Assembly (NCBI RefSeq): GCF_023256255.1
Contig: NZ_JAGDXD010000005.1
Location: 1 to 44,655 of the forward strand
DNA length: 44,655 nt
Source of the DNA: Caldivirga sp.
Lineage (GTDB): Archaea; Thermoproteota; Thermoprotei; Thermoproteales; Thermocladiaceae
Reading direction: 5' to 3'
Below are positions 15,633 to 19,938 of the stretch, piece after piece. The notes beneath the pieces were generated by a model. The model did no database searches. It worked only from the letters and a program-made list of their open reading frames with translations, and was not told where the DNA came from. Numbering within the stretch: the stretch's first letter is position 1; the number at the start of each line of letters is the position of its first letter. A program made the position numbers and the translations under genes.

Positions 15633-16613
15633 TCACTTAATGTTGAGCTTAGTGCCATTACTTATAGCGTACGCCACCAGCCTACTACTACCCCTAGGCA
15701 CTATAAGTCTATTAACTAACCTCTTCCTTAACAGTAGCCTTAATGACGCCCTAACCGTCCTTTGGGGTATAAGGGTCTTTTCAATAATCTCCTTAGGTGT
15801 TAATGGGCCTTCATACTCAAGAACCTTAAGTATTAATTTAGCGCTTGGAGGTAAGTCACTAATCATTGATTCAATAATCCTCCTATAACGATCAAGGGTT
15901 GTTGCCGCCGACATCTTAACGAGCTTAATCTCAGGACCCTTAAATATTGACACCTTGGTTACGTTAATGTTCCTCCTCACTAATCCATCAGCAATAACCT
16001 CTATCTTACTTCTTGAAAGTAAATCACTAATCACTATCCTTGAATCATCAGGAACTATGACCGGAACCCTGGCTATGTTCGTTGAATTAATGGGTACTAT
16101 CTCAAAGGACCTTAAACCCCCATATATGAGTACACCACCAGCACTGAGGGCGTAGGCTGTTGAACCTATGGGTGTTGCCACTATTAAGCCATCGGCGCTA
16201 TCCCTCCATGCGAACTCATTATTTATGATGAGCGTGTACTCCATTAATGTTGCGCTCCTGGCTGGTGCTATAACAATGTCATTAACCGCAATGTATCCCT
16301 GGCCCGTGGTTAAAGTTGGTATAGCCTCAATGGTGTAGTTACCCCTCTTAAGGTTACTTATTAAATCATTGAAATCCGCAACATTAACCGTATTCAAGTA
16401 CCCTGCACCGTAACCTATGGTTATTATTGGCTTATCTAAGCCAGCTAATTTATGGAGGGCACTAAGTATAAACCTATCAGTACCAAGTACACCAATGAAG
16501 TCGAACTTGGAGATAACTGATTCATCAGTGGTAAGTGGGTATGAGACTATTTCACCATTATCGGCGAACTCCTTAGGTAATTCACCATCCTTAGTAAGCA
16601 CCATTATCCTCAT
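15633..16613 (-). CDS. NAD kinase-like protein fused to a C-terminal winged helix
   Basis: Residues 1-250 are NAD kinase: IAVNDIVIAPARSATLMEYTL (the NE/D block) and DGLIVATPIGSTAYALSAGG (almost identical to the family signature). The family makes NADP from NAD with ATP or polyphosphate. The GGDG phosphate-binding motif, however, reads GVLGTDRFIL: the Asp is kept but glycines are lost. Residues about 255-326 are a separate winged helix (LPPSAKLILKVLEYEGPLTPKEIIEKTLIPQRTVRASLRLLLRKRLV), a crenarchaeal HTH type. The fusion suggests NAD(P)-responsive DNA binding, but this is inference. It may be a regulator derived from NAD kinase or an active bifunctional enzyme. Confidence 0.8.
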   Translation of the reverse strand: MRIMVLTKDGELPKEFADNGEIVSYPLTTDESVISKFDFIGVLGTDRFILSALHKLAGLDKPIITIGYGAGYLNTVNVADFNDLISNLKRGNYTIEAIPTLTTGQGYIAVNDIVIAPARSATLMEYTLIINNEFAWRDSADGLIVATPIGSTAYALSAGGVLIYGGLRSFEIVPINSTNIARVPVIVPDDSRIVISDLLSRSKIEVIADGLVRRNINVTKVSIFKGPEIKLVKMSAATTLDRYRRIIESMISDLPPSAKLILKVLEYEGPLTPKEIIEKTLIPQRTVRASLRLLLRKRLVNRLIVPRGSSRLVAYAISNGTKLNIK

Positions 16614-16726: not shown

Positions 16727-16775
16727 TCAGGAATCAGCGGCATCATCAGTGGTCAGTGCTGCAAACCATCATCAC
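16727..16775 (-). ncRNA. C/D box sRNA (2'-O-methylation guide)
   Basis: Read on the minus strand: C box GTGATGA (16775-16769), a 12-base guide TGGTTTGCAGCA, D' CTGA (16756-16753), a 4-base spacer, C' TGATGA (16748-16743), a 12-base guide TGCCGCTGATTC, and D CTGA (16730-16727). All four boxes are exact apart from the shortened C', and the two guides have equal length, the textbook archaeal layout. ATATTAATT about 25 bases upstream of the C box is a plausible TATA element. It lies in the 253-base gap between the NAD kinase and tricorn genes. Predicted methylation positions are the target bases pairing five bases upstream of D and D'. Confidence 0.85.
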
Positions 16776-16866
16776 CAGTGATTAACTCGCACTAATTAAT
16801 ATGCTTAACTAAGCAGTTTAATGCATCCTTCAAGCCATAGCCCAGGTGAAGAAGCCAAGGTAAAAA

Positions 16867-19800
16867 TTAGGATTTAATTTCACTCTCAAGGAACACCTTA
16901 ATGGAATCCACGGTTTCCTCATTCCCTAGTTCCTGTACCGCCACCTCTAACTGCTTATCAATGCCATTTCTGTAATCCTGTGGAAGGTTATCAATGACTA
17001 CATCTGGGTCTACGCCGTAATTTTCAACTCCGAAACCTACATCAATAAACCAGAAGGCATACTTAGGTTGAGTAACTACAGTCCCGTCGACTAAAGAATA
17101 CCTACTGTCAATACCTATTACACCACCCCAAGTCCTAGTACCTACTACCTTACCCAGTTTATAGAGCTTGAAGGCCTTAGTAAATATGTCTGCGTCAGAC
17201 CCGGCTTGTTCGTTAGTTATTAAGGTAAGCCTTGTAGGTGCTACTACAGGATAAGGAATTGGTTCACCCCTCCTAGGTACATCGACACCTATCCTTTTAG
17301 TTAAAAGTCTCTCTATGAGGAGTTGCGAGATGTGGCCACCGCTGTTGTACCTAATGTCTATAATTACGTTACCGTATTTAAACACCTCGTAAGTGTACAG
17401 CCTAAAGAACTCTGCAAAACCCTGAGACATCATGTCCGGTATATGAACGTAACCATAGCCCTTGGAGTTCACATACCTTCTATTCCTCTCAACCCAACTC
17501 CTGTATATCACGTATTTCTCATTCTTCAAAGTCCTAACGGAGAATTTCTTAACCTCACCACTCTTCTTCTTAAGTTCTATAACCACTGGTTCACCAGCCT
17601 TATTTACCAGGAGCTTTTCCGGTGGGTTATTTGGATTAAGCTTTACGCCATCAATAGACACTAGGCAGTCCCCTACCTCAGCGTTAATACCCGGGTCTAG
17701 TAATGGAGACCTCTCATTCTCCTCATTAGGGTCCCCTACGAAAATTTCCGTTATCTCATAGCACTCGCCATTGAACTTATAATCTATCCCTAACCCACCA
17801 ACGTTATAAGGCTTCTCCACATCATAATCACCACTGAACTCATAGGCATGGGAGGTCCTCAACTCACCGTGCATTTCCTTAATTAAGTCGGAAAGCTCAT
17901 AACGCGTGTTTACTTTATCTAAAAGTCTCCTGTATTTTTCTAGGACGCTATCCCAGTTTACCCCATTCATGTCATTTCTCCAATAGTTCTCCTTCATTAA
18001 CCTCCATGCTTCCGTAAGCATTTGCCTCCACTCCTCCTTTAGGTCAACGTAGACTTTTATCCTCAATAAGTTTATTATCCCGGTCTTGGGGTTAGCGTCT
18101 TGTCCTTGTTCAGGCTTCTTATCCTCCTTCAAAACCCTTATCGTATTCCCCTGCCTTATTATTAGAAAGCCTTCCCTATACTCAAAATCAGTAACATTGT
18201 CTAAGTACTGTTCCTTAGTCTTTGTGGAGAAGTCAAAAACCTCAATTAAGCCATCTTGCCTCTGCCCTGAAACCCTCTTAGGTGGGAATCTTAATAACGC
18301 GACCTTGTTTCCTTTCAAACCCCTAATTTTAGAATAATAACCAGGGTCTATGGGTATTGTAGAGACCCTAGTTTCAATCCCGTCTAAGTCTACCTTGGCT
18401 TCAGCATCTTTGTTAATTAGCTGCTTATTAAATGGTGAGAACACTTCCTTATTAAGTACTACTAGGTAGGCCTTAGCTGGGTTTACGAAATCATAGTGGA
18501 AGTAAACCCAATCCATTATAGGTTCAAAATTCCTCGTGGAAAGGAAGTAAAGCATTTTACCGTCTGGGTCAAATGAAAGTGAGAAGTTGTAATAACCTTG
18601 GGTGGTTATGTCCTTAACATTCCTTAAATCACTTATCCTAACCCTATTCCACATCCAATAACTAGACTCTGGGTAAGTATATGCAATCCACTTACCGCTT
18701 GGGTGCCAGACCACCTCCTCAATGTACCACTTCCCCTTGTCTAAAAGTGTCTGTGAACCATCGTTAACATTCACTATCCATAACTCGAAATCGTTGTTTA
18801 CAAGCGCTATTAAACTACCGTCAGGTGAGGGAACCATCTTCTCCACGTAGCCTTTGACCTTAATCTCCTTTACCTTATCCCCCTCAAGGCCGTAAACCTC
18901 TATCTTATCCTCATCTGAATTGAGGACGAAAATTCTACCCTTAACCACCTCTATGGCCTTATACCTAGTACCTTCCCTATTACCTAGTTGCACAACTGGG
19001 CCATCCCAATTAGGCATTAGAAATGGCTTACCTCTAACTATTGCAGCAAAGTAATTTCCATCGGATGAGTAGTATGTGAGGTACTTGTCAACTTCCTTAA
19101 ACTTACCTATCCTATGCTTACCCGTTACTGGAATTTTTACCTCAAGCTTCTTTATTTCCCCATCCTTAAGTAAATAAATGTCACCAGCCATTTGGAAAAC
19201 AATCGAGTTACCATCAGAGCTGGCGTTCCTTACGTAATATTCTGAAAAGTCCGTGTGCCTTCTTAAGTCCCTCCCCTCAACATCTACTGAGTAAATGTTC
19301 CCAGTGCCCTCATGGTCTGAGATGAAGTAGAACCTATCCTTTACCCACATGGGGCTTGTTAGGTTAGCGTTTAAGTCAAGAAATGGTTTAAACTCACCCG
19401 TGTAACCATAGTCAATGTAAAACCTCCCCCTAGTACCACCCCTATACCCCTTCCAGTAGGGTAAATCAATAGTGTTCCTCCCTATAACTAAAGCCTTCTC
19501 ACCAAAGGCTATGGAATCCGCAGGCCCATAGGGTAGCCTCCTAATCTCACCAGTCTCAGGATCTATAGAGAACAATTCCCTCCATTTAAGGAAGGGCCTC
19601 TTAAAGTCGGACCTAACTATTATCTTATTATCTGGACTCCAACCCACAACGTTAGTTACTGGGCTACCGAAGTACGTTAACCTCCTAGGCTCACCACCTT
19701 CTAGAGGAATTACGTAGACCTCCGATAAGGGTTGATCACCAGGCTGATATCTAGCAAAGGCTATCCATTTCTTGTTAGGTGAAATTCTAGGGTTTAATAC

Positions 19801-19938
19801 TATACCGAAATCTGAGGTTAATCTTACCGCTTCATCACTTTTCATATTGTAAAGCCATAAATCATCTTCTGTTGTGAAAACTACCCATTCATCCCTTACA
19901 TCTGGGTACATTAAGTAGGCTTTCACAACATGGCTCAC
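16867..19938 (-). CDS. tri: tricorn protease
   Basis: A 1023-residue cytosolic peptidase acting downstream of the proteasome on short peptides. The N-terminal 600 residues form two beta-propellers (many blades such as NPRISPNKKWIAFARYQ and PSPDGSLIALVNNDFELWIV). A charged linker is followed by the C1 region, a PDZ-like part (GGLGIDYKFNGE...VGDCLVSIDGVKLN) and the C2 protease core. Catalytic residues by family: His in LRTSHAYEF, nucleophile Ser914 in NEQAGSDADIF, Glu972 in VENYGVDPD. Length agrees with the family. The start is GTG 19938. It is a single-gene unit with about 250-base gaps on each side. Confidence 0.93.
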   Translation of the reverse strand: MSHVVKAYLMYPDVRDEWVVFTTEDDLWLYNMKSDEAVRLTSDFGIVLNPRISPNKKWIAFARYQPGDQPLSEVYVIPLEGGEPRRLTYFGSPVTNVVGWSPDNKIIVRSDFKRPFLKWRELFSIDPETGEIRRLPYGPADSIAFGEKALVIGRNTIDLPYWKGYRGGTRGRFYIDYGYTGEFKPFLDLNANLTSPMWVKDRFYFISDHEGTGNIYSVDVEGRDLRRHTDFSEYYVRNASSDGNSIVFQMAGDIYLLKDGEIKKLEVKIPVTGKHRIGKFKEVDKYLTYYSSDGNYFAAIVRGKPFLMPNWDGPVVQLGNREGTRYKAIEVVKGRIFVLNSDEDKIEVYGLEGDKVKEIKVKGYVEKMVPSPDGSLIALVNNDFELWIVNVNDGSQTLLDKGKWYIEEVVWHPSGKWIAYTYPESSYWMWNRVRISDLRNVKDITTQGYYNFSLSFDPDGKMLYFLSTRNFEPIMDWVYFHYDFVNPAKAYLVVLNKEVFSPFNKQLINKDAEAKVDLDGIETRVSTIPIDPGYYSKIRGLKGNKVALLRFPPKRVSGQRQDGLIEVFDFSTKTKEQYLDNVTDFEYREGFLIIRQGNTIRVLKEDKKPEQGQDANPKTGIINLLRIKVYVDLKEEWRQMLTEAWRLMKENYWRNDMNGVNWDSVLEKYRRLLDKVNTRYELSDLIKEMHGELRTSHAYEFSGDYDVEKPYNVGGLGIDYKFNGECYEITEIFVGDPNEENERSPLLDPGINAEVGDCLVSIDGVKLNPNNPPEKLLVNKAGEPVVIELKKKSGEVKKFSVRTLKNEKYVIYRSWVERNRRYVNSKGYGYVHIPDMMSQGFAEFFRLYTYEVFKYGNVIIDIRYNSGGHISQLLIERLLTKRIGVDVPRRGEPIPYPVVAPTRLTLITNEQAGSDADIFTKAFKLYKLGKVVGTRTWGGVIGIDSRYSLVDGTVVTQPKYAFWFIDVGFGVENYGVDPDVVIDNLPQDYRNGIDKQLEVAVQELGNEETVDSIKVFLESEIKS

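Follow-up and report, generated by a model that had tools for sequence, protein, structure and literature searches.

A C/D box sRNA gene of Caldivirga whose D' guide is predicted to target wobble G34 of tRNA-Cys(GCA)

The window, that is, the whole stretch of 44,655 nucleotides of Caldivirga DNA that was analysed, carries an intergenic element that is almost certainly an archaeal C/D box sRNA gene of this genome, and it is probable that the element is both such an sRNA and one whose D' guide is aimed at the wobble nucleotide G34 of tRNA-Cys(GCA). A tricorn-like protease gene (16867-19938, minus strand) lies on one side, with its stop at 16867, and an NAD-kinase-like gene (15633-16613, minus strand) on the other, with its start at 16613; the element is on the minus strand as well. 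Read from 16775 to 16727 on that strand, its sequence is GUGAUGA-UGGUUUGCAGCA-CUGA-CCAC-UGAUGA-UGCCGCUGAUUC-CUGA, with the following parts:

16727-16775, minus: C/D box sRNA core from box C to box D (sequence; motif absent in resampled DNA; homologues in three genera)
16795-16803, minus: TATA-like CATATTAAT, a possible promoter element about 20-28 nt upstream of box C (sequence)
16769-16775, minus: box C, GUGAUGA (DNA GTGATGA); TGATGA identical in all except the Thermocladium-like homologue
16757-16768, minus: D' guide UGGUUUGCAGCA (DNA TGGTTTGCAGCA), 12 nt, complementary to the anticodon arm of tRNA-Cys(GCA)
within 16757-16768, minus: D' guide core GGUUUGCAGC, invariant in 12 sequences, pairing in 11 genomes
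16761, minus: fifth base of the D' guide, C16761, pairing with G34 of tRNA-Cys(GCA)
16753-16756, minus: box D', CUGA (DNA CTGA), invariant in 12 sequences
16749-16752, minus: spacer CCAC between D' and C', 4 nt (sequence)
16743-16748, minus: box C', UGAUGA (DNA TGATGA); UGA.GA invariant in 12 sequences
16731-16742, minus: D guide UGCCGCUGAUUC (DNA TGCCGCTGATTC), 12 nt; core (C)CGCUGA mostly conserved, target not convincing
16727-16730, minus: box D, CUGA (DNA CTGA) (sequence), conserved except in the Thermocladium-like homologue (CUUA)

Boxes C and D are exactly the RUGAUGA and CUGA of archaeal C/D box sRNAs (GTGATGA and CTGA in the DNA), the internal boxes D' (CTGA) and C' (TGATGA) are both present, and the two guides, at 12 nt each, lie inside the expected range of 10-12 nt; the sole departure is the missing leading purine of RUGAUGA in C' (C-TGATGA). 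The initial annotation, which had read the region as a C/D box guide RNA, gave coordinates, boxes, guide lengths and complements of both guides that are all correct on the sequence, and the TATA-like box that it had noted upstream is present at 16803-16795. An A+T-rich stretch, TTTAATTAA, is similarly placed in most of the aligned Vulcanisaeta homologues.

That the boxes fell into this arrangement by chance in an intergenic spacer, with no RNA gene behind them, is very improbable. The strict motif (four boxes, guides of 9-13 nt, spacer of 2-8 nt) occurs once in the window and in none of 100 windows resampled at first order (dinucleotide), and in G001, a complete related genome of 2.0 Mb, it occurs three times versus none in five resamplings, the count rising to seven when one base of C' is left free. 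A chance arrangement would agree with the Rfam search, which returned nothing for the element at the gathering score (the matches in the window are only 5S rRNA and one tRNA), and with RNA folding of the element, which yielded no stable fold or signal, but it is already contradicted by conservation, as the same anatomy recurs in homologues of three genera beside different genes. A clear terminal stem joining C and D was not found in the window, and G002 (Caldivirga sp. UBA161, of the same genus as the window) would allow one of about 5 bp (TGTAA/TTACA). G001 has genes for fibrillarin and for an L7Ae-family protein; a motif search of that genome did not find Nop5, for which the pattern itself may be at fault.

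Of 40 other genomes searched at the DNA level, 11 contain a homologue (E from 1e-19 to 8e-4), and an exact pattern scan of GTDB genomes gave matches in Caldivirga, Vulcanisaeta and Thermocladium, the remaining matches being bacterial and taken as chance. Among the genomes, G018, G020, G022 and G023 are Vulcanisaeta, and G006 is labelled Thermocladium-like because its copy resembles two named Thermocladium copies. When 12 sequences are aligned, little or nothing changes in the D' guide core, in box D' and in most of C and C'; the spacer and most of the flanking sequence are variable. The RNA follows a radical-SAM gene in G001 and G002, a gene that in the window stands beyond the tricorn-like gene, and in G007 it has two other genes as neighbours, of which one is exosome-subunit-like as judged from its sequence; a synteny check did not find the tricorn and NAD-kinase genes next to the homologues. 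Since conservation is centred on the RNA while the flanking genes differ, the comparison argues for a real archaeal C/D box sRNA gene, and the conserved unit is, by the same comparison, the RNA. Reading the element as a C/D box guide RNA is thus well supported by its boxes, by their absence in resampled DNA and by the homologues in three genera. In the Thermocladium or Thermocladium-like homologues (L011, L237, L241) box C is RTGCTGA and the expected box D is CTTA, with canonical D' and C'; the two changed bases of C and D would face each other in the kink-turn and may represent a co-change or decay of the D half.

The initial annotation had proposed rRNA or tRNA as the target, to be sought through the complements of the guides. 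Exact 12-base complements are absent from the rRNA of the four relatives used, the organism's own 16S and 23S being absent from its assembly, and the sequence GCTGCAAACC, tried as an exact target, was rejected, its matches outside the sRNA not being tRNAs and the actual tRNA-Cys sequence being GCTGCAGACC. For scoring, all tRNAs found and the 16S and 23S of G001 and G007 were taken, every complementary run having to include position 5; introns were kept in, except that of the G007 tRNA-Cys, which was removed by hand. This narrows the proposal: in both of these complete related genomes the best site of the D' guide is tRNA-Cys(GCA), GGCUGCAGACC, in which G34 faces guide base 5, and the rRNA sites are weaker, 16S G812 (E. 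coli numbers) being second best in both. As a separate observation, the 16S (L020) and 23S (L016) of G001 measure 1679 and 3241 bases versus 1512 and 3069 in Vulcanisaeta relatives, and the roughly 170 additional bases in each suggest inserted introns.

The predicted duplex between the D' guide and mature tRNA-Cys(GCA) is obtained in 11 of 11 genomes examined; it covers 10-12 positions, includes a U.G pair at G37 in its interior and, in two of the 11, has a further wobble at the far end. Position 1 of the window's own guide is mismatched. In all 11 genomes the register of the fifth nucleotide falls on wobble G34 with a standard C-G pair, and the computed energy is 4-8 kcal/mol better than that of the 16S runner-up. 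The longest uninterrupted Watson-Crick run is 6-7, below the nine uninterrupted Watson-Crick pairs of the general rule in Dennis et al. (PMC4644070). Of 1000 shuffled guides, 37 or 43, depending on which of the two genomes is scored, match the D' score somewhere in the tRNA and rRNA set, so any single genome is modest evidence; the placement of position 5 on the wobble base, repeated across 11 genomes, lends the tRNA-Cys target added weight. Because the genomes are related and the tRNA-Cys site hardly varies, this repetition is to be read as consistency and not as covariation. U8 of the guide is kept opposite G37, though C would pair better there.

The retention of U8 could be explained if the element were instead a double-guide rRNA sRNA, with D' on G812 and D on U921 of the 16S (E. 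coli numbers), sites separated by 109 nt, since opposite U8 there is an A in 16S, whereas G37 of tRNA-Cys allows only a wobble pair. sRNAs whose two guides act within about 100 nt of each other are frequent (PMC7994747, PMC4644070); in G001 and G007 the D' guide has G812 as its runner-up, and in G001 the D guide scores best at U921. This alternative is nevertheless unlikely. In every genome the D' guide pairs better with the tRNA than with 16S, and the U921 match of the D guide contains two wobbles, one of them at the methylation position; 367 of 1000 shuffled guides score as high, and in the three Vulcanisaeta checked the match disappears although their 16S site is unchanged; placement of both guides on conserved rRNA sites within about 100 nt was thus not found. 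In a variant, the D' guide might serve both tRNA-Cys and 16S.

For the D guide, no convincing target was found among the tRNAs, 16S and 23S scored; the D' guide, and not the D guide, was found to complement a stable RNA in such a way that the fifth base forms a standard pair. A pairing with the D-arm of tRNA-Tyr (UCAGCGGCA, 9 bp, in the window's genome) was discarded: it is weaker in G001, and a search beyond Caldivirga did not find the D-arm motif. The initial annotation had let both guides direct methylation, which is not supported, since no site can be assigned confidently to this one. Probably the D guide either lacks a productive target or has one confined to Caldivirga. A targetless D guide would fit the reported habit of tRNA-directed sRNAs, in which one guide serves a tRNA and the other is without a target (PMC7994747).

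A real C/D box sRNA could also have other present targets, its guides being orphans or acting on mRNA or another stable RNA, or the RNA being used as a chaperone, and we regard this as rather less likely still than the double-guide alternative. In its favour, about one third of the sRNAs in seven archaea have no significant rRNA match (PMC4644070), the core of the D guide is conserved without a known target, and the scored set consisted of tRNA, 16S and 23S, with SRP RNA and RNase P RNA outside it; against it, in 11 genomes the D' guide matches a wobble base, and wobble bases are a known class of C/D target. A pattern search for SRP RNA gave one insecure candidate near position 653679 of G001.

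With tRNA-Cys as the preferred target, the sRNA, presumed to be transcribed, would bind L7Ae at C/D and C'/D' and then Nop5 and fibrillarin, and its D' guide would pair with the anticodon arm of tRNA-Cys(GCA). Fibrillarin would then 2'-O-methylate the nucleotide that faces the fifth guide base, turning wobble G34 into Gm34, which may in turn affect the decoding of UGU and UGC codons.

The tRNA-Cys genes bear on when this would happen. An intron follows G37 in six of seven Vulcanisaeta (G007, G010, G013, G020, G022 and G023, not G015) and in G006, the cut after G37 being inferred from the seven-base loop; it varies in length (L256-L261, L279) and is missing from Caldivirga and G015. In Vulcanisaeta the D' duplex covers 8-9 positions on the unspliced tRNA-Cys versus 11-12 on the spliced form, and the computed energies lie at about -13 to -14.5 and at -20.5 to -21.2 kcal/mol, respectively; in G006, whose intron begins with a sequence that mimics the exon, both forms pair. 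Since the duplex crosses the exon junction at 37/38 and is complete only on the spliced tRNA, the sRNA is predicted to act after tRNA-Cys splicing in Vulcanisaeta. Position 34 is also methylated by C/D guides in Haloferax volcanii, which specify Cm34 in pre-tRNA-Met and Cm34 and Um39 in pre-tRNA-Trp, but there the guides base-pair with the intron and have to work before it is spliced out (PMC2584109), whereas the Vulcanisaeta sRNA would span the exon junction and the Caldivirga tRNA-Cys is intronless. The fuller proposal of a family-wide sRNA that places Gm34 on tRNA-Cys(GCA), after splicing in Vulcanisaeta and hence in the order opposite to that of the Haloferax tRNA-Met and tRNA-Trp guides, is tentative, and we put its chances slightly below even.

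In its boxes, 12-nt guides, short D'-C' spacer and small intergenic gene the element resembles the archaeal C/D box sRNAs described so far (PMC7994747; the seven-species set of PMC4644070), from which it differs not in anatomy but in its predicted target, tRNA-Cys G34; with an anatomy typical of the class, it is an ordinary gene with a specific predicted target. The Pyrococcus sRNAs for position 34 of tRNA-Leu(CAA), tRNA-Leu(UAA), tRNA-Met and tRNA-Trp (PMC7994747) likewise place one guide on the wobble base of a single tRNA; the target here is G34 of tRNA-Cys, and the guide is unrelated by complementarity to those tRNAs. With the double-guide rRNA sRNAs the element has the symmetric architecture in common, but it lacks a good pair of rRNA sites and has only the weak matches to 16S 812 and 921. 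In a 2018 review, C/D-guided Cm34 is given for archaea but Gm34 for bacteria only (PMC6313347), Gm34 goes unmentioned in a 2020 survey of three archaea (PMC7668247), and no report of Gm34 in archaeal tRNA-Cys was found in a literature search that excludes the Pyrobaculum catalogue of 110 sRNA families; the novelty of the site is accordingly provisional. The element would provide a concrete predicted methylation site for an sRNA common to three genera of hot-spring archaea, and the intron found in most Vulcanisaeta tRNA-Cys genes and in none of Caldivirga offers a natural comparison of whether guided methylation awaits tRNA splicing; beyond this, it is one more routine member of a large class of sRNAs.

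Some further observations concern neighbouring genes and related elements. Another four-box C/D element of very similar layout, GTGATGATGGGTATCAAACCTGATTACTGATGACCTCACGACGATCTGA, lies at 1032706 (minus strand) of G001 and is probably a second sRNA with different guides. The tricorn-like gene (16867-19938) stands between the radical-SAM gene and the sRNA in the window and not in G001 or G002, and would therefore have been gained here or lost there. The NAD-kinase-like protein (15633-16613) has a C-terminal MarR-like winged-helix stretch, just below the Pfam cut-off, which is an unusual pairing.
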